DNA of 43,101 nucleotides from a virus. The translations under genes were made by a program, and so were the position numbers. This document shows, one piece after another, positions 2,568-43,101 of this stretch. Where the stretch lies: positions 1 through 43,101 of the IMG/VR virus record IMGVR_UViG_3300009168_000031; one strand, written 5' to 3'. The notes below the pieces were generated by a model. The model saw only the letters and a program-made list of their open reading frames with translations, was not told the origin of the DNA and made no database searches. The first letter of the stretch is position 1; each line of letters opens with the position of its first letter.

Positions 2568-5500
2568 TGTGGTACGACCAGACGAGAGCCAAGAATCCTG
2601 AGTTTCTGCCTGAGCAGAACTGGGCGGCGAACTTCAAGGCGGGCATTCAGAATGTACGGTCTGCTGCCCGAGAGCAGGTAGACACGCAACGGCTCCAGAT
2701 GGAACAGTCGGAGTTGGAGCAGGCGCGGGCCTTTGGCTGCATGATGGCGGACTACCGGACGAAACAGGCCATGAAGTCTCGGGACTTCCAGATTGCCCAA
2801 CAGCAGATGCAGGGGGCTGAGAGGCAGAGACAGTGGGACGCACAGGCCGAGCAGGGCGACTTCTGGAAGAAGATGCGGGAGCAGGCCGTCACGAAGTTGG
2901 GTGACGAACTCCCGGCGGACACGGCCTCACAGGAACGGGCCATCGTCGCCAAGATGTACGAACTGGCATCGCTGGAAGCTCTGAAAACGGGCGACAGCGC
3001 GAACGCAACGGAGTACCGGAGGCGGGCCGAGATTGCGAGTGGTGTTGGACAGGCCACGGAGCAGGACTACGCCAGCGGCGTCGTGAAGCGTCCGGCAACA
3101 GCACCCGAAGCGACTACCGAGAAGGGTACAGCGCAGAAGGTTGCCGAAGGCATCGTCGGCGGCGTCAAGACTGTCGGGGAAGGCGTCTACAAGCATACCG
3201 CGCAGGACTGGTCAATCTTCGTCAATGCGGCTCAGATGCTTGCGAAGAAGGACGGGCTGGACGAGAACGAGCAAGCGTTTCTCGCGCTCGTGAAACAGCA
3301 CTCGGCTGAGTCTCAGGCCATGAAGGGGCCGACGAATGTGATGATGCACGAGGCCAAGGCTCCGCCGGACGAACTCTACGAGGCGTATGAGAACCTTGGG
3401 CTTGGGCGAACCCTTGTTGGCGAGATGACCTATCCGGGCTGGTATCTACTTGGTAGAGCCGGTTCGTTTCAGGGCCTCCGGGCCATCGTCGGGGAGAGAA
3501 CGGCGGTTGGTGCCACGGGCGCAGCGGCGCAGAAGATTGCCACCGGCGCGCTGTGGGCACCAGCGCAGTTGGAAGCGGCCATCGGCAAGCTGATTGCTCT
3601 CCCGTTCAAGGCTGTGGGGAAGGCTATCAGTGCGGCCACGGCGAAGCGGCTGACGCAGAAGGCTGTCCAGAACCCTGAGAAGATGGAGGCCATCCTACCG
3701 ACACTGGACAAGATTGCACAAGGCGGCGTACCGGACGCTGACGACATGGCGAAACTGGCCTCATTCGACGACGAAATGGGCAAGGCTGTGTCGGCTATAC
3801 CGGAGCCTGTCCCTACCGCTGCAAAACAGGCCACTGAGAAGGTAATCATCGGTGGTGGTGAGCCATACGACCCGATGAAGGCGATACTGGACTTCGGGGA
3901 TGTTGATGCCACGGTTGCCAAGCTCTACCCGCAGTCGCGTGAGAAAGCGGTGATGCGTGGCGTTGGGAAGATTCCGGGCATCGGGCCGGAGATTGCACGG
4001 CGCATCGACCCGTCCATGACGCCAAGACGAAGCATTGAAGCGCAGGCTGTCCAAGAGTATGCTGCCGTGTTCAATCATCGCATCAACGCTGAGGCTCCTG
4101 GGTGGAAGGCGATGGTGGAGCGCGTGGCTAATGCCAAGTTCCCCGGAGCTTCGTCTAAGAAGTACCTACAGATTGAAGACAGCATCGTCAAGAACACCGC
4201 TGCCGTACAGCCCAAGGTGAAGGGCGCATCAATGGCAATCGGTGACATCTTGGAGAAATCGGAGAACTACGTTCTGGACGAGCCAACTCAGGCCCTAGCA
4301 GACCTGTGGAAGCTGGTGCGGTCAAACGCAATCCGAGAGTATGAGAAGCGCGGGATGCACTTCCCCGCCGCGTTCCGGTTTCCAAGAATGGTGAAGGGGG
4401 CGCACGGCGAGCAGGTCGGCTTCCCGACTGTCCGGCTGAAGAAGCCCCGAAGCTACGAGACGATGATGGCCGGTAGGGAAGCGGGCGTCGAATACGTGGA
4501 CGACCCCGTGCAAGTCATACAGTCCTTCGTAGACGAAGTGACTCGCGTTGTCGCAGCTAATGACTTCCAGACCGTCGTCAAAGCGATGGGCAAGACGGCC
4601 TCGGAACGGGTGCCGGTCAGTATCAAGAACTGGCGCATGGCAACGGCGAACGCGGTCAAGGACATCAACTACTCCATAGCCACTGTCCGAAGAATGGCCG
4701 TCACTCCGAGGGGCGCGGAGAGTACCAAGTTCCTACAGTCGCAACAGGCGCGGTCGCTTGGCCTCATTGACCAGAGGGCACCGCAGTTGGCGCAGAGAAT
4801 CCGGGCGATGGTGGACATGCCCGCCGAGCAGCGGACGAAGGAAGCGACGGCGATAGTCAAAGAGCTTCAGGCGATGATGCCGTCTGTCCGCACGGAAGCG
4901 GCGAAGGCACGACTCGCCTACTCCAACGCGCTGCGCAGGGCGAAGGGGCCAAGGCTCGGTGCTGGCGAGGCTGGCACGAGGCATCCGGCCTTTACGGGCC
5001 GCATCTTCTCGAAGGAAGTCGCTACCACATTGGACGAACTCTTGCCGTCAAGGGCGGGGCGTGTCACCAACGCGACGCGGCAGGTTGCCGAGTTCTTGAG
5101 GACATCTGTGGCACAGTTGGACTGGTCTGCGTGGCTCTATCAGGGCCTTCCCGTGTTGGGACGCAGGCCGGACATTTGGGCCAAGGGTGTTGTCCAGTCT
5201 GTAAAAGCAGCGTTCAAGCCCGAATCCATAGCAAAGTTCTTTGCCGACCCGAAGCATGTAGCGTTCTTGTCGCGCAATCCAGACGTAGCGCAAGGCACGC
5301 ATGAATACTATGCCGGTAAGCCACTCATTGAGAAGTTGCCCGTTGTTGGAAAGGCGGCAGGAAAGGTTGTCGGTTTCTTCGAGCGCGGATTCGAGACGTT
5401 CGGAGACGCAGTTCGGATAATGATGGGCGAAGCCCTTGAGTCAGGCTTTGTGAAGGCGGGGGCAGAGAAGCAGTTGGGAACGTACGTCAACCGAATGACT

Positions 5501-9031: not shown

Positions 9032-9826
9032 GTGTATGACTTCTATGTAATCACCCCCTTGTATCAGGGGGTGGACGGTATCACCTGCTGGTGCGTCGAA
9101 CAGTCGCACCACGCGCTCGAAACCAAGGGTATCCGGTTCAAGTGGCTGCCGGGTTCTACGGGCAAGGGCGACGCGCTGATTGCCCGGTCTCGCTCGGTGG
9201 CGTGTACCGCCTTCCTCGAATGGGGAGAGACGGACTACATGGTGTTCCTCGACTCGGACATCATGTTCCAGCCCGCAGACCTGCTCCAGATTTATCAGGA
9301 CATGAAGGACGGGTACGACCTCGTAGGGGGCGTGTATCCGGTCAGGAACGGGAGCCAGATTTCGTCCTACTTCCACGGGGGCAAGGCCCCGGACGGGCCT
9401 CCCGGTGTCTATGAGTGCCAGTTCCTTTCAACCGGCTTCATGGGCATCAAGAAAGGTCTCTTGCGGAAGATGAAGGACGAGTTGAAGCTGCCGCTCTTGC
9501 ATCCGAACACGCAGGACATGATGTCGTACCCGTTCTTTCAGGACTGTCCATTCGTGAACGACGAACCCGACGAGTCCGGCAACAAGGACATCTGGCTCTC
9601 AGAGGACTGGTTCTTCTGTGAGCTGGCAAAGAAGGTCGGCGTCAAACCCCATCTGGACACGAGGGTGTTACTGGGGCATCAGGGCAACCGCATCTACACC
9701 GTTGCGGACATCGAGGAGTATCAGTCTCGGCAGAGAGAGGAAAAGGAAGCCGAGGCATTGAAGGAACGCTACCGCAAGGGTGACGTAGTTGACTACGTGG
9801 AAATGGGGAGTGAAGGATGCTCTTAG
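9032..9826 (+). CDS. GT-A-fold glycosyltransferase
   Basis: A 264-aa protein starting at GTG 9032, 6 nt after AGGAG; the nearby ATG at 9036 is out of frame. It has a nucleotide-sugar-type N-terminus (YDFYVITPLYQG), a LIARSRSVACTAFLEW helix, and the metal-binding DxD site in DYMVFLDSDIMF near residue 75. Further on are a GGVYPVRN stretch and a C-terminal LSEDWFFCELAKKVGV followed by LLGHQGN, matching the acceptor-side ED and metal-ligand His of GT-A enzymes. It would transfer a sugar from an activated donor. It is the first gene after the capsid and overlaps the next gene (LicD-like) by 10 nt, so the pair probably modifies one substrate, either a virion protein or the host surface; the substrate is not visible. 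Confidence 0.82.
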   Translation: MYDFYVITPLYQGVDGITCWCVEQSHHALETKGIRFKWLPGSTGKGDALIARSRSVACTAFLEWGETDYMVFLDSDIMFQPADLLQIYQDMKDGYDLVGGVYPVRNGSQISSYFHGGKAPDGPPGVYECQFLSTGFMGIKKGLLRKMKDELKLPLLHPNTQDMMSYPFFQDCPFVNDEPDESGNKDIWLSEDWFFCELAKKVGVKPHLDTRVLLGHQGNRIYTVADIEEYQSRQREEKEAEALKERYRKGDVVDYVEMGSEGCS

Positions 9827-10467
9827 ACAGAGACGTAGCAGCCAAGCTCCTCAGTGATACGTGCGACGTGCTGGAGAAGCACGCGGGGAAGAAGGGGTAC
9901 TGGGTTGATTCAGGAACGCTGTTGGGATTCGTTCGTGACAACGACATCAACCAGTACGACCACGACATCGACGTGCGGATACTACCAAACAAGGTTCCAG
10001 AGACGGATGAGGCGACGAAGGCCATCCTCGACGACCTGTGGGACATAGGCTACCGGCTGTTCGCCCCGAATGTGGGGCGACGGGCAGAGCTTATCTCCAT
10101 CTGGCGGTCTGAGGACTGGGTGCATCGCATCATGCTTGACCTGAAGTTCGCTCACACGGACGGGAACCTCGTCTGGGTGTACTGCTGGCCGAATCCCGCG
10201 TGTCTTGAACCGCCGAGGGTTCATGCGTACCCGGCCCGCTTCTTCCGAGAAATCGGAGAGGTGGAGTACCGGGGCAGGAAGTATCCGTGTCCCACGCCGG
10301 TCGAAGAATACCTTGTCCACCACTACGGGCCTGACTGGAGACAGTTCAAGGCACGGGCGGACGAGGCTGAGATGACCGACCTGAAGTGGGACTACATGAA
10401 GTCACCACCTTGTGCAATGGACGTTGACGCGCTGCTGGCGTTGAGGAAGCAACTGAAGGTGACATGA
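9817..10467 (+). CDS. LicD/fukutin-family nucleotidyl- or phospho-transferase
   Basis: A 216-aa protein with the LicD signature: WVDSGTLLGFVRDNDINQ at residues about 29-46 (G-T-L-LG..R), then DHDIDVRILP carrying the catalytic acidic residues of the nucleotidyltransferase-like core, and the family's C-terminal PTPVEEYLVHHYGPDWRQFK. LicD proteins move phosphorylcholine or phospho-sugars onto teichoic acid or lipopolysaccharide, and fukutin relatives add ribitol-phosphate. The ATG lies inside the glycosyltransferase gene, and the stop overlaps the next ATG, so translation is coupled. Coupling with a glycosyltransferase beside the capsid gene suggests glycan decoration of the virion or of the infected cell. 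Confidence 0.85.
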   Translation: MLLDRDVAAKLLSDTCDVLEKHAGKKGYWVDSGTLLGFVRDNDINQYDHDIDVRILPNKVPETDEATKAILDDLWDIGYRLFAPNVGRRAELISIWRSEDWVHRIMLDLKFAHTDGNLVWVYCWPNPACLEPPRVHAYPARFFREIGEVEYRGRKYPCPTPVEEYLVHHYGPDWRQFKARADEAEMTDLKWDYMKSPPCAMDVDALLALRKQLKVT

Positions 10468-27323: not shown

Positions 27324-28558
27324 ACAAGCCCACCATCACAGAGGGCACCGGCGTCTACTCCCTGAAGTGGGAGGAAGGCGTCGAGATTGACGTGACCCGT
27401 GCTCGACAGCACACCCGTGACGGTACAGTGACAGGCGAGATTGCCGTCCGCTCCGGCATCAACGGCACGTCAAAGCTCTTGCACCAGGCGCAGTTCAACT
27501 TCTCGTCTACGACGACGCGGAAGACGCTGCAAAAGACGCTTGAGGAGCGCGTCCACGACCCGAACATTGACTGGTACGTCGCCATCGAGCAGATGTGCCA
27601 CTACGTCGTCGAGTGGATGCGGCAGGGCGAACCCGTCCGGCTCCTCAACACGGAAGAACAGTTCACGAAGCCGGAGCATCTTATCTACCCGTTTCTGTTG
27701 AAGGACCAACCAAACGTGCTCTACGGGCTTGGGGAATCCGCGAAGTCCCTCATGGCATCCGTGTTTGCCATCGTCATGCTGCTGCCGTGGCAGGACAACC
27801 CTCTCGGCCTGATTCCGGGCAACAAGTCGGTCGTTCCCTTGGTGCTTGATTGGGAGACGTACCACGACGAGTACGGCTGGCGGTTGCAATGCCTCACCAA
27901 AGGACTGAAGCTGCCCTACATCGAGGTCCCTTATCGGCGGTGCGCTCTACCACTGGCCGACGACTTGGAAGCGATACAGAAGGTCATCCGAGAGGTCAAG
28001 GCTGGCTGCATCATCGTGGACTCGGTGGCTGCCGCCTCCGGTGGTGACTTGAACGCCGCCGATGTTGCCATCCGTCTATTCACGGCTATCCGGCAGCTCA
28101 ACGTCTCCTCAGTCCTGATTGCTCATACCGCAAAGGACCAAGAGGGGAAGAAGCACAGCATCTACGGGTCGGCGTTCTTCAACAACTACGCACGGCAGGT
28201 CTGGTACATGAAGCGCGAGAACGACGACGACCCCGACGAAATCCGAGTCGGACTGTTCCACGAGAAGCACAACAACACCAAGCCTCACCCGCCGGTGGGC
28301 TTCAAGTTTGTCTTCTGCGACGGCGCAACCATCGTCGAGAAGTCCGACATACGCGACTCCTACGACATGATACAGGAGCTTTCAGCGGGGTCGCGCATCC
28401 TCGCCTTGCTCAAAGGCGGGGCGATGAAACCGGCGGCGATTACCGAGGAGCTTGGAATACCTCAGAGCACTACGAGGATGAACCTCAAGAGACTGAAGCA
28501 AAGACATGTGGTCATTGCCTTGGAGGATGGGAGCTATGGTCTTTCTATTCAAGGTTAG
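27320..28558 (+). CDS. RepA/DnaB-like RecA-fold ATPase (replicative helicase) with C-terminal winged helix
   Basis: A 412-aa protein. Walker A is YGLGESAKSLM near residue 136 (unusual AKS in place of GKS/T). Walker B is GCIIVDSVAAASGG near 230. A sensor-like SVLIAHTAKDQEGKK (about 262-276) and later SAFFNNYARQVWYM fit the AAA_25/RepA group of hexameric helicase-type ATPases. Residues about 355-412 form a winged helix (ALLKGGAMKPAAITEELGI, RMNLKRLKQ). It is the only replication motor in the genome and is followed directly by an iteron cluster, which it may recognise through the winged helix. Host polymerase and primase would be recruited. Confidence 0.8.
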   Translation: MNKPTITEGTGVYSLKWEEGVEIDVTRARQHTRDGTVTGEIAVRSGINGTSKLLHQAQFNFSSTTTRKTLQKTLEERVHDPNIDWYVAIEQMCHYVVEWMRQGEPVRLLNTEEQFTKPEHLIYPFLLKDQPNVLYGLGESAKSLMASVFAIVMLLPWQDNPLGLIPGNKSVVPLVLDWETYHDEYGWRLQCLTKGLKLPYIEVPYRRCALPLADDLEAIQKVIREVKAGCIIVDSVAAASGGDLNAADVAIRLFTAIRQLNVSSVLIAHTAKDQEGKKHSIYGSAFFNNYARQVWYMKRENDDDPDEIRVGLFHEKHNNTKPHPPVGFKFVFCDGATIVEKSDIRDSYDMIQELSAGSRILALLKGGAMKPAAITEELGIPQSTTRMNLKRLKQRHVVIALEDGSYGLSIQG

Positions 28559-28652
28559 CGTCACATGTCAGCGTCACACCCCCTATAAGGGGGGTGGTGT
28601 GACGGTGACGTCACATGTAACGGGTGTGACGTCACATGTGACAACGAAGGGA
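28558..28652. other. Iteron cluster, candidate replication origin
   Basis: Five related sites fill the gap after the ATPase gene. GCGTCACATG (28558) and GCGTCACACC (28571) are inverted relative to GGTGTGACGG (28596) and GGTGTGACGT (28623). The 14-mer GTGACGTCACATGT occurs exactly at 28605 and 28626, 21 bp apart (two helical turns). Another GGTGTGACGG is at 28696 inside the next gene. The arms GTCACACC and GGTGTGAC flank CCCCTATAAGGGGG, giving an extensive hairpin. This could be an origin or an autoregulatory operator. Confidence 0.65.
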
Positions 28653-28659
28653 GAAGTCG

Positions 28660-29163
28660 ATGTTTACTCGTAACGCCAATGGGTGTGCGGTGATAGGTGT
28701 GACGGACAACCTGACGGAGCAGCGGTCGCCGGAGAACGGGTATGAGTTGCTGCTGGCGGCGGTCTTGGAGCAGGCGGCGTGGGACTACGGGCATCCGCAC
28801 CAGGCGACGCGGGTATGCGACGCACCGAGCAAGCAGGACGGGCCGGAGTGGGCGGACTACCGAGTCGGGCCGGAGGAAGTCATGGAGGCCCTGTTGGGGA
28901 AAGGGAACCTCGAAGTCTATCTTGCCGCAATGGACACACCGCTGACGGTGGACGAGCTTCGGTTGCAGTTCATGGTGAACCGGCTCCGTATGACGCGGGA
29001 CGAGGCAAAGGCCGCGCTCGCAGGCGGGGTAGTAGCGCACCGCCCCGCACCAACAAGGGCCATCGCGTGTCTGCAGTGCGGCAAGCCGTTCACCCACAGG
29101 AACACGAAGGCGAAGCTCTGTAGGGAATGTTATCTGCGGTCGGTAAGGGGGGGGGGAAGATGA
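28660..29163 (+). CDS. Early protein with C-terminal zinc finger
   Basis: A 167-aa protein with GGGAGAAG before the ATG. The N-terminal 90 residues are helical (NGYELLLAAVLEQAAWDYGH). The C-terminus carries IACLQCGKPFTHRNTKAKLCRECYLRS, a four-Cys zinc finger resembling ones in DNA-binding phage proteins. Its 5' end contains one iteron copy. Immediately after the candidate origin, it may be a replication initiator accessory or regulator; unproven. Confidence 0.65.
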   Translation: MFTRNANGCAVIGVTDNLTEQRSPENGYELLLAAVLEQAAWDYGHPHQATRVCDAPSKQDGPEWADYRVGPEEVMEALLGKGNLEVYLAAMDTPLTVDELRLQFMVNRLRMTRDEAKAALAGGVVAHRPAPTRAIACLQCGKPFTHRNTKAKLCRECYLRSVRGGGR

Positions 29164-39190: not shown

Positions 39191-39196
39191 CTAGCT

Positions 39197-39315
39197 TCTC
39201 AGGTTCCGTCCTGAGAGGGTCAAGGGTTCGTCCACTGTCCCCTATCAGTGGACCTCTGGCGCTGACATGAAGGCCCGCCTGCCGGTGGGCGTAAACACCG
39301 GAGATATGACAGCGC
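39197..39315 (+). ncRNA. Structured leader ahead of the C2H2 gene (candidate RNA switch)
   Basis: Two perfect 7-bp hairpins (TCTCAGG/CCTGAGA at 39197/39210 and GTCCACT/AGTGGAC at 39230/39247) are followed by a three-part element. An outer GCGCTG/CAGCGC stem (39259/39310) encloses two mutually exclusive hairpins, GCCCGCC/GGTGGGC (39273/39284) and CCGGTG/CACCGG (39282/39296). The GAGGAG ribosome site lies 1 nt after the outer stem. This is the layout of a regulatory switch controlling the next ORF. No known riboswitch class was recognised. Confidence 0.5.
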
Positions 39316-39328
39316 GAGGAGTCAAGAC

Positions 39329-39490: not shown

Positions 39491-39496
39491 CTTCCC

Positions 39497-39880
39497 CTCC
39501 CCTTCCTAGCAGGGGTGAATAGTCCTGCCGTTACAGGGACAACGCACGGGAAGGTGTGCCTATGACAGGCAGACGGTGGCTGTGCTAGGGGTCAGCTACC
39601 TGTATTACCTGCCGCGACTCTCTACGGGGACTCGCGGCGCACTATGGACCTTGCTCTGCGTGAGCAGGGAATGGAGGGGGCTTGGCACGGGATAACTAGC
39701 AGAGGGAAGCCGTGCCTCGTGGTCTAGAACACACCTGCCTCTGCACATCACCCCTGCCTCTTAGGATGCAGGGCGCGCACGGGGTGAGCCTTGTGACGGC
39801 TAATTGCGGGGCTACAAGGCCATCGCCACTGAGGGCTTCGCGGTGAGGTAGCTGCCCACCGGCCCCGTGACGCATATCAA
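39497..39880 (+). ncRNA. Large structured non-coding region (candidate ornate RNA)
   Basis: About 400 bases hold no plausible gene. Stems seen: GCAGG/CCTGC (39509/39524), TGCCT/AGGCA (39557/39567), GCCGCGA/TCGCGGC (39611/39632), TGCTC/GAGCA (39652/39662), GGCACGG/CCGTGCC (39684/39710), TCACCCC/GGGGTGA (39748/39781; CCCTGC/GCAGGG at 39752/39768 competes), GCGGGGC/GCCCCGT (39806/39862). All are on one strand in serial, nested order. No tmRNA tag, RNase P core or tRNA arm was recognised. The gene after it (39892) has its own AGGAGAG site. Confidence 0.5.
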
Positions 39881-39891
39881 GAGGAGAGAAG

Positions 39892-40206
39892 ATGGCAACG
39901 TATGTGAAACCGATTGTGTGCGAGAACTGCGGGGCGACAACTCCCGCGTTCATTCCCAAGGGGCAGACGGTTGACGACTTCATGCGGGCGACGAATTGCC
40001 CTGTCTGCGGCTGCAAGACGAAGCGGACGGAGTACCCGAGCACGCCTTCGTACCCGTGGGTATGGTATCCGTACTACTACCAGTACTACGTCTACCCGAG
40101 TGGGACTGGCGACCCGCTGCCGCAGCAACCGACCTATGTATGCGGTGGCAACAGCGACCCATGTGACGTAAACACGGTTGGCTATCTGGGCGGTCATCGC
40201 GCCTAG
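39892..40206 (+). CDS. Zinc-knuckle protein with Tyr/Pro-rich segment
   Basis: A 104-aa protein: CENCGATTPAFIP and CPVCGCKTKR form a zinc ribbon in the first 45 residues. A striking aromatic/proline tract follows (YPSTPSYPWVWYPYYYQYYV), then a Gly/Pro/Asn tail. AGGAGAG precedes the ATG. The tract is low-complexity and probably extended or aggregation-prone. It may bind proteins or form a structural scaffold. Function unknown. Confidence 0.6.
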   Translation: MATYVKPIVCENCGATTPAFIPKGQTVDDFMRATNCPVCGCKTKRTEYPSTPSYPWVWYPYYYQYYVYPSGTGDPLPQQPTYVCGGNSDPCDVNTVGYLGGHRA

Positions 40207-41090: not shown

Positions 41091-41192
41091 CATCTACGAC
41101 GAGCGCGACGACTGGGTTCCGTATCTCGACCTCAGAGAGACCTTGTATCCCATCGGTGCTAACGGGCGGTTCCCTCCCCGCCCTTGCACATA

Positions 41193-41221
41193 GGGGCCGG
41201 TAGCTCCGGCCCCATTCTCTT
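41193..41221 (+). terminator. Terminator before the terminase gene
   Basis: GGGGCCGG (41193-41200), TAGCT, CCGGCCCC (41206-41213), then ATTCTCTTT. An 8-bp perfect stem with a T-rich tail. Its arms equal those of the inverted repeat at 34356. Confidence 0.72.
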
Positions 41222-41230
41222 TCCCCTCTA

Positions 41231-41265
41231 GGGGGCTAGTAGAGCCTTCACGGTTCCTAGCCCCC
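41231..41265 (+). promoter_or_regulatory. 9-bp hairpin immediately upstream of terL
   Basis: GGGGGCTAG (41231-41239) pairs perfectly with CTAGCCCCC (41257-41265); only 8 nt separate it from ATG 41274. There is no ribosome site between hairpin and start, so it likely affects terL translation or marks the RNA end. A promoter for terL was not found (TTGACA at 41087 lacks a -10). Confidence 0.5.
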
Positions 41266-41273
41266 ATTTCATT

Positions 41274-42650
41274 ATGAATGTACAACAGCCGATATGGGAT
41301 GCGGTCGGATTCAAGCCGACGCCACAGCAGGCACCGATAGTCGAGTCCGAGGCGCGCCAGAAGCTCATCTGTGGGGGCGTCCGGTCGGGCAAGTCTTACA
41401 CGTCCTCTATGGACGCCCTGCCCAAGATTGTCGTAGCCGACACGCAGGCCCTCTTGAAGAAGCGTCCCTGTGCCCTCTACTGGCTGATAGGACAGGACTA
41501 CGAGTCCTGTAGAGCCGAGTGGAACTATCTGACGGAAACGCTCTCCAAGCTCGGTCTGCTGGTCAAGGGCGGCGGGACGGCCATCGACCCGGGTGAGATG
41601 TTCTTGGCCGGTGGCTCACGCATCGCCACACGGTCGGCTCGGTATCCTGAGAAGATTGCGACTGAGGCGTGCGACGGCATCATGGTATGTGAGGCCGCGC
41701 AGATTTCATTCGAGATTTACCTGAGACTGCAAGAACGCTTGGCTCAGAAGCGTGGCTGGATGACGATGGCGGGCACCATCGAGACGCAGTTCTCGTGGTA
41801 CATCGACCTCTACAACCGCTGGTCGGGAGCGAACGAGGAAGATGCAAAGTCATTCTCTCTCCCTACGTGGTCGAACAACATCGTCTTTCCCGGAGGACTG
41901 AAAGACCCGGAGATTGTGAAGCTCCGTGAAGCCCCCGGCATGACCGAGGAACGCTTCATGGAACGGTACGGGGGAGTGCCGCAGAAGCCGAAGGGCTTGG
42001 TCGTCTACAACTTCTCGAACCCCATCCATGTCAGGAGCCTCGTATCAGATGGGTGTCCTCTCGGATTCGACCCGAACAAGAAGGTCTATCTGGCGGTAGA
42101 CCCCGGCTACGCAGGGGCGTATGCCGTCTTGGCGATTCAGGAGTGGGGCGAGCAGGTCGTCCTCGTAGATGAGGTCTACGTCCAGCAGAGAACCGTCGAG
42201 GAAGTCATCCTCATCTGCCAGCAGAAGCCGTGGTGGGGCTTGGTAGACGGTGGAGCAATCGACATCGCGGCAAAGCAGCATCAGGCCGACAGGTCACAGT
42301 TCGAGGTCTGGAGGGACAGGGGGCGGGTGCATCTGGAGATGGGCCGCATCCACTGGGACAAAGGGGGAGCCGAGGACGGGGTGAACCTCTTGAACTCCTA
42401 CTTCATGCCCAATCCGATAACGAAGCAACCGAAGCTGATTGTCAGTACGCGGTGCAAGGGACTGATAGCGGAGTGCGGCGGCGGGCCGTCTCCGGTTGAC
42501 CAAGGCGGGGCGTGGGTGAGGGGTGAGAACGGGAAGATTGTGGACAAGTGGAATCACGCAACGAAGGCAGTCGCGTACTGGCTTATGAACAGGTACGGAT
42601 TCAGCCGACAGGAGCGAACGGTACAGAAGATTCGGGCCGTTTACAGATGA
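41274..42650 (+). CDS. terL: Terminase large subunit
   Basis: A 458-aa protein with the packaging ATPase and nuclease. Walker A is GGVRSGKSYTSS near residue 35. The Walker B region is GIMVCEAAQIS near 137, where the usual Asp is Cys but the catalytic Glu is kept. A coupling-like motif MAGTIE follows near 160. The RNase H-like nuclease has AVDPGYAGAYAV (about 272), LVDGGAIDIA (about 324) and GGAEDGVNLLNSYF (about 366) supplying three acidic residues. It drives genome entry and cuts concatemers. It starts without a recognisable ribosome site behind a hairpin and overlaps the portal ATG by ATGA. Confidence 0.93.
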   Translation: MNVQQPIWDAVGFKPTPQQAPIVESEARQKLICGGVRSGKSYTSSMDALPKIVVADTQALLKKRPCALYWLIGQDYESCRAEWNYLTETLSKLGLLVKGGGTAIDPGEMFLAGGSRIATRSARYPEKIATEACDGIMVCEAAQISFEIYLRLQERLAQKRGWMTMAGTIETQFSWYIDLYNRWSGANEEDAKSFSLPTWSNNIVFPGGLKDPEIVKLREAPGMTEERFMERYGGVPQKPKGLVVYNFSNPIHVRSLVSDGCPLGFDPNKKVYLAVDPGYAGAYAVLAIQEWGEQVVLVDEVYVQQRTVEEVILICQQKPWWGLVDGGAIDIAAKQHQADRSQFEVWRDRGRVHLEMGRIHWDKGGAEDGVNLLNSYFMPNPITKQPKLIVSTRCKGLIAECGGGPSPVDQGGAWVRGENGKIVDKWNHATKAVAYWLMNRYGFSRQERTVQKIRAVYR

Positions 42651-43101
42651 AGAAACCTACGGTAGAGAGCATACAGGAGCGGGTAGCCGACTTCGAGGAG
42701 CACTGGAATCCGCTGCACACTGCCCAGAAGGAATGGCAGCAGTATTACAACCTCGAATACAAGGTGAAGCTCCCGAAGGACTTGGGTGCGGAGCAGTACA
42801 CGCCGAGAACGGCCTACGACTGGGTGAAGGTCGGCGTGAACAACTACATGCTCGACAACCCGATGGTGGAGGTTGCCCCACGGGACGACAAGGACACAGC
42901 CGAGCAGGACTCTATCGCAATGGAGACGTTCGGCAATAGTCTGTGGCAGCGGAACGCTGTCAAGGTCAGGGACAACGCGACGATTCAGTTGGTGGCGGGC
43001 CAGTTCGTCTACAAGATTGGCGTCAACGAAGCGTTCTTGGGCAACGACTGGGAGGACTTGGCCGGTGACGAACGTAAAGCGTTGCAGGACTTGGCTCTCA
43101 C
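42647..43101 (+). CDS. Portal protein, N-terminal part (continues at 1)
   Basis: ATG 42647 overlaps the terL stop (ATGA). It begins MKKPTVESIQERVADFEEHW and reads on through the repeated 123 bases into the frame at position 1. The early helical region with a TAYDWVKVGVNNYMLDNPMV segment fits the N-terminal wing of portal proteins. See the continuation at 1..1432 for the full-length interpretation. Confidence 0.85.
   Translation, partial: MKKPTVESIQERVADFEEHWNPLHTAQKEWQQYYNLEYKVKLPKDLGAEQYTPRTAYDWVKVGVNNYMLDNPMVEVAPRDDKDTAEQDSIAMETFGNSLWQRNAVKVRDNATIQLVAGQFVYKIGVNEAFLGNDWEDLAGDERKALQDLAL
42979..43101. repeat. Terminal direct repeat, right copy
   Basis: Identical to 1..123; see left copy. One copy should be removed to obtain the unit genome. 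Confidence 0.93.

Follow-up and report, generated by a model that had tools for sequence, protein, structure and literature searches.

A modular structured RNA family outside Rfam, encoded upstream of phage packaging and head genes

The window analyzed here is a single virus record of 43,101 bases (IMG/VR record IMGVR_UViG_3300009168_000031, taken whole), and the longest stretch of it that is not covered by a gene almost certainly encodes a structured RNA. This RNA, about 385 nt long and on the + strand, belongs to a family outside Rfam that is built from modules: a 3' module of two hairpins is conserved, the pseudoknotted 5' part varies, and additional modules are optional. The comparisons below show that the RNA structure is conserved, and they establish its strand, modularity, position, and independence of any one neighboring gene. 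In the window, small genes precede the RNA and the head operon follows it, with everything on the same strand, and in related phages transfer RNA (tRNA) genes occupy this site ahead of the packaging and head genes. We give about an even chance to its being a new free-standing modular phage RNA in this tRNA-island position, working in the manner of the GOLLD and ROOL RNAs without being a member of either family.

Genes were called with a codon-usage model trained on the long open reading frames (ORFs) of the window. Positions 39491-39891 (401 nt) were the longest uncovered gap, and no ORF within them reached gene score, in keeping with a preliminary description of this DNA, made from the letters alone, that saw no plausible ORF there. 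On the + strand, 400 nt folded with a minimum free energy (MFE) of −183 kcal/mol versus −165.5 ± 6.1 for shuffled sequences (z = −2.85, with 0 of 100 shuffles equal), so the comparison proposed in that description came out better than its controls. The − strand gave a similar z of −2.71, so the strand cannot be told from folding energy by itself. Perfect stems of at least 7 bp numbered 11 where dinucleotide shuffles give 4.9 ± 2.2, a count attained by 2% of the shuffles, and those spanning within 100 nt numbered 7, compared to 2.1 (0.5%). The excess of stems claimed earlier therefore held up, but their nested order did not, as important stems partly cross (CCTAGCA/TGCTAGG, CTTCCC/GGGAAG, and GCAGAGG/CCTCTGC cross other stems, as pseudoknots or kissing loops), and the one or two 7-bp pairings said to be expected by chance should have been nearer 2 to 5. 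The folding excess is moderate, and several other sites equaled or exceeded the RNA stretch in a genome-wide fold scan of the window. The decisive evidence is comparative rather than energetic. No tandem repeats occur at the RNA, only two short two-copy repeats, and a CRISPR- or TIGR-type array was rejected because regularly spaced direct repeats were not found.

A terminase search led to a relative, L002, with a terminase 74% identical to that of the window and a gene-free region of about 670 nt in the same place, after homologs of the window's small upstream genes. This region folds with z = −5.1 to −5.6 and shares with the window the motif CCCUGC-loop-GCAGGGCGC[A/G]CACGGG. Scanning 2.9 million viral contigs for the motif added L010 and L012 as genuine members, along with two matches attributed to chance; beyond these three phages, pattern scans of viral contigs gave only chance matches, mostly coding (L011, L014, L015-L020, and L051). 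The relative L012 (45.6 kb) has a portal homologous to that of the window but another terminase, and its region folds with z = −4.8. The portal of L010 differs from that of the window and retrieves only itself when used as a query. The 3' module is present in all four phages, their 5' parts differ, and a pseudoknotted 5' module is common to the window and L010. Homologous phage regions with covarying helices, which the preliminary description had proposed to look for, thus exist, and no conserved ORF was seen running through them. With lengths of roughly 500 to 650 nt in L002 and L012, about 385 nt in the window, and about 200 nt in L010, its label of a "large ornate" RNA is fair for the first two and only just so for the others.

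The ends of the window RNA were inferred from its neighbors only: it was taken to begin at the stop codon of the gene before it and to end at the ribosome-binding site of the gene that follows. Its parts are as follows.

39491..39881, + strand: structured noncoding RNA (gene-free gap, fold z −2.85, homologous modules in L010, L002, and L012)
39491..39553, + strand: P1 pseudoknot, CUUCCC 39491-39496 with GGGAAG 39548-39553; CUUGCC/GGCAAG in L010
39503-39511 with 39583-39591, + strand: loop-loop (kissing) helix, UUCCUAGCA with UGCUAGGGG, the second side in the P6 loop
39525..39572, + strand: P3 arm, CUGCC 39525-39529 with GGCAG 39568-39572, and its extension 39531-39537 with 39559-39565; from the L010 fold only
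39543-39547 with 39554-39558, + strand: hairpin P4, whose loop is the GGGAAG side of P1
39575..39600, + strand: P6 hairpin, GGUGGCUG with CAGCUACC; GGCGGGUC with GAUUCGCC in L010
39601..39747, + strand: middle part, hairpins 39611-39638, 39649-39669, and 39684-39716; single-sequence fold, perfect stems only
39699-39705 with 39738-39744, + strand: possible pseudoknot GCAGAGG with CCUCUGC in the middle part
39752..39773, + strand: 3' module hairpin hp1, CCCUGC...GCAGGG; same hairpin in L002, L010, and L012
39775..39873, + strand: 3' module hairpin hp2, GCG-CACGGGG...CCCCGUG-(A bulge)-CGC; within the match to the R1 model described below

To measure covariation without picking helices by eye, the structure was fixed from the fold of one sequence and substitutions were shuffled in the other. 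Across the modules compared in pairs, 14 compensatory changes alter both sides of a base pair. In module A, shared by L002 and L012, 18/18 pairs are kept with 5 both-sided changes over two hairpins (p ≤ 0.0003), a GAGA loop is kept, and sliding controls for hp2 give no both-sided change. Module X, from the same two phages, keeps 17/17 pairs with 3 both-sided changes (p ~0.004); these convert CAU/AUG to UGC/GCA at three adjacent pairs of an otherwise nearly invariant stretch, and sliding controls give zero. When the L010 fold of the 5' module is laid onto the window, 26/32 pairs are kept with 6 both-sided changes (p = 0.0007 for both-sided changes). Helix by helix, the two phages differ by one both-sided change in P1, by three in the P3 arm, where one pair is broken, and by three in P6, where 8/8 pairs are kept. 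The kissing helix forms 9 standard base pairs in both phages, and because its sequence is almost identical in the two, it provides no covariation evidence. The same test on the 3' module, with L010 versus L012 alone, is weak (p ~0.2 to 0.3). Within hp2, the pair 39777-39871 is G-C in the window and L010 and A-U in L002 and L012, and another pair is C-G in L010 and L002, G-C in the window, and a mismatch in L012. G-U pairs recur in the conserved helices, and because these would be C-A on the opposite strand, the RNA is placed on the + strand.

A covariance model of the 3' module (R1), trained on L012, L010, and L002 with the window left out, provided an independent test. Searched over 333 kb, R1 matched window positions 39747-39881 with 49 bits and an expectation value (E) of 2.5e-10, a score that draws on sequence as well as structure. 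Both sides of the hp2 stem are intact in this match despite a large loop insertion, in which further hairpins leave 80 nt unaligned versus 19 in the model, and a one-base bulge (A or U) stays at a fixed site of the stem across the 3' modules. R1 found no copy in the other portal relatives or their whole records, including the close relative L022.

Known families do not account for the RNA. With cmscan at the gathering threshold on the window, L002, L010, and L012, and at relaxed E values up to 5 to 10 on the RNA regions, the 4,227 Rfam families, which include GOLLD, ROOL, transfer-messenger RNA (tmRNA), and RNase P, gave no match in the window and nothing convincing in the RNA regions, and this agrees with the failure of the preliminary description to recognize any large phage RNA. 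Neither the GOLLD nor the ROOL model matched the window, L002, L010, or L012, and for that reason the RNA is filed under neither. ARAGORN found no tRNA in the window, nor did the Rfam tRNA model at E up to 10, and the latter found nothing in L002 or L010 or over module A in the two further, distant phages described below, L027 and L034. The tmRNA model found nothing in the window and matched only the 18-nt T-arm of a tRNA-like element in L012 (E = 6.5e-4). DNA similarity searches in annotated phages and plasmids found nothing, and a pattern scan of 85,000 genomes returned 13 matches, none with hp1, that were judged to be chance.

A covariance model of module A (R3) extended the family toward tRNA genes. 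R3 has a borderline match (19 bits, E = 0.056) in gene-free sequence of L027, where the end of the RNA adjoins a tRNA at 1282-1352, beyond which lie tRNA-Gln and tRNA-Ala. That first tRNA is degenerate, with the T-loop GUCAGCA, and is missed by ARAGORN but found by the Rfam tRNA model (E = 7e-7). In L034, the same element starts close to the end of a tRNA, immediately behind two tRNA-Gln genes. The R3 match there is insignificant (0.5 bits), so membership of L034 rests on a hand-made structural alignment, with further support from near-identity to L027 (AUCUGCCAUGUG[U/C]AGAAA) and from the place beside a tRNA. Aligned by structure over L002, L012, L027, and L034, module A has standard pairs in 64/68 cells. 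Several of its pairs occur in two or three types, and a single U-G wobble is common to all four phages. Models of modules X and A gave nothing significant in the window, so these modules are not claimed for it. Plain tRNAs also lie upstream of the portal gene in the relatives L029, L033, and L036, and these, together with the tRNAs adjoining the RNA in L027 and L034, define the site as a tRNA-island position. By eye only, further degenerate tRNAs missed by ARAGORN are seen in L032 near 1750-1830 and in L036 near 3110-3185.

Inside the RNA region of L012, positions 1752-1847 form a tRNA-like element with a perfect acceptor stem and T-arm, in which a UUCG hairpin replaces the anticodon arm and ARAGORN reports a four-base anticodon. 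Just 5' of this element, at L012:1700-1745, is a possible H-type pseudoknot, AAGUGU[GUUGC...]ACACUUC[GCAAC]. A reading of modules X and A together as a permuted tRNA was dropped, as there are no T-stem pairs.

The closest likenesses are to GOLLD and ROOL, phage RNAs near tRNA islands that rest on kissing loops and form cages of unknown purpose; GOLLD has a conserved 3' region, a variable 5' region, and a linker sometimes with tRNAs (PMC12286853). The RNA described here shares with GOLLD its phage origin, tRNA-island position, conserved 3' and variable 5' parts, a tRNA-like element inside the region (in L012), and kissing loops, but is shorter (about 200 to 650 nt versus often more than 800) and different in sequence. 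The GOLLD-type layout and position can be read as an analogy only, given that the model fails. ROOL is likewise a phage or prophage RNA near tRNA islands with pseudoknots and kissing loops (PMC12286853), but the present RNA has other modules and far more length variation. Most likely, and by analogy with those two, the RNA would be cotranscribed with the neighboring genes and freed by processing, with tRNA ends or stable hairpins as cut sites; in L027 and L034, tRNA ends would provide the cutting. As a discrete transcript, it would then function in trans, late in infection, as a folded object.

Several observations weigh against a free-standing RNA of this type. The window RNA folds only moderately better than shuffles, and its middle third (39601-39747) is absent from L010 and without comparative support. 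The window's own local MFE, used as the 5' reference, kept 24/37 pairs with 0 both-sided changes, and the L010-based fold was adopted because this local fold is unsupported. Members are few, with four firm and two more via distant module A, and a length range of about 200 to 650 nt would not be expected of an RNA that forms cages to a fixed design. In addition, only a few bases separate the RNA of the window and L010 from the next gene's ribosome-binding site, an arrangement that also fits the main rival, a cis-acting leader that forms cotranscriptionally and controls the late packaging and head genes by put-like antitermination or by translational or ligand-sensing control. Such a leader, which we consider rather unlikely, would agree with the location of the RNA ahead of terminase or portal in each firm member, and the put sites of HK022, which also place an RNA structure ahead of an operon, are a precedent for phages acting through nascent RNA structure (PMC9378689). 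However, the genes on both sides of the RNA differ in every phage that carries it, so no single gene is an obvious target; a riboswitch or gene-specific leader was rejected on the same grounds, as four members precede four different genes. L002 and L012 also have about 280 to 330 nt more gene-free sequence after the 3' module, and a scan limited to sigma-70-type sites found no promoter near the RNA. Put elements, moreover, belong to lambdoid early genes and are much smaller than the RNA of this locus, and no common motif was recognized.

Related phages carry tRNAs at the same position, one of them degenerate enough to escape ARAGORN, the L012 element has a canonical T-arm and acceptor, and module A starts with a D-arm-like AGCUC...GAGU, all of which would suit a group of tRNAs, decayed or very unusual in form, or of tRNA-like structures that go unnoticed by ordinary finders. 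We regard this as improbable: the Rfam model that detects the degenerate L027 tRNA finds nothing in the window (or, like the tmRNA model, in L002 and L010), there is no cloverleaf, the conserved helices and loops differ from those of tRNA, and compensatory changes would not survive decay. Constant proximity to terminase or portal genes, together with a loop-loop interaction, raises the thought of a packaging RNA (pRNA), ringed on the portal or otherwise tied to the terminase. Multimers of the phi29 pRNA, itself encoded near packaging functions, form by loop-loop interaction. That pRNA belongs with a dedicated ATPase and a small, protein-primed genome, whereas the genomes here are about 43 to 46 kb and encode at least two clearly distinct kinds of large terminase; size and structure differ as well, no Rfam match to phi29 pRNA occurs in the window, a 43-kb record with an ordinary large terminase, and L022, a close relative, has no recognizable copy, leaving a packaging role decidedly improbable. 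Least probable by far, and already disfavored, are chance hairpins or a DNA-level signal such as a cos/pac site or origin. Similar fold z scores on both strands and the strong folds elsewhere in the window would be expected of these, but compensatory changes with + strand G-U pairs and the independent R1 match argue against them.

A more ambitious form of the free-standing reading, which we hold to be somewhat unlikely, takes the RNA for a new class of phage RNA with tertiary structure, perhaps self-assembling, and both smaller and more modular than GOLLD and ROOL. In an uncultured phage lineage, it would stand in for the tRNA island ahead of the packaging genes or accompany it. If true, RNAs of this ornate kind would have originated or spread in one and the same niche of phage genomes several times. 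Large structured RNAs known from phages are few, and no function is established for the likest ones, GOLLD and ROOL. Another family of unrelated sequence that has the same niche (tRNA island, near late genes), a conserved 3' part, a variable 5' part, and a loop-loop contact would point to a need that recurs and not to mere oddities. At about 200 nt, the L010 version is compact and would make a simpler target for structure work than either.

Three further features of the window surround the RNA.

39191..39328, + strand: second gene-free, hairpin-rich stretch, starting with ACUAGCUUC (ACTAGCTTC) as the main RNA does
39892..40206, + strand: downstream gene of 104 amino acids with CxxC pairs, absent from the other RNA-bearing phages
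41274..42650, + strand: terminase large subunit gene, a landmark 3' of the RNA in the window, L002, and L012 (a different terminase in L012)

The stretch at 39191-39328 folds with z = −2.7 to −3.9, ranks 4th among the 573 windows scanned across the genome, and is possibly part of the main RNA locus; its resemblance to L012:1850-1910 is insignificant. The terminase large subunit was identified by a match to PHROG 2 (E = 2e-24). Because the portal gene is split over both ends of the record (42548-43099 and 2-1432), the record looks like a near-complete, circularly permuted genome, and the nearest cultured relatives of this phage are distant.

Other structures and genes were observed in passing. 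Two strong G+C-rich hairpins lie immediately 5' of the terminase gene (window 41190-41270), and a hairpin just before the terminase is also present in L002 and L022. The strongest fold of the window (z = −6.7) is in a gene-free gap at 28540-28680, where a near-perfect hairpin, GCGTCACACCCCC...GGGGGGTGGTGTGACG, is followed by the inverted repeats GTCACATGT..ACATGTGAC; this looks like an origin or operator cluster. At 9032-10467, the capsid gene is adjoined by glycosyltransferase and LicD-like genes. The terminase large subunit encoded at L007:404-2749 has an insertion of about 330 amino acids, after GTFEG and before SLGWYPEYF, that looks like an intein.
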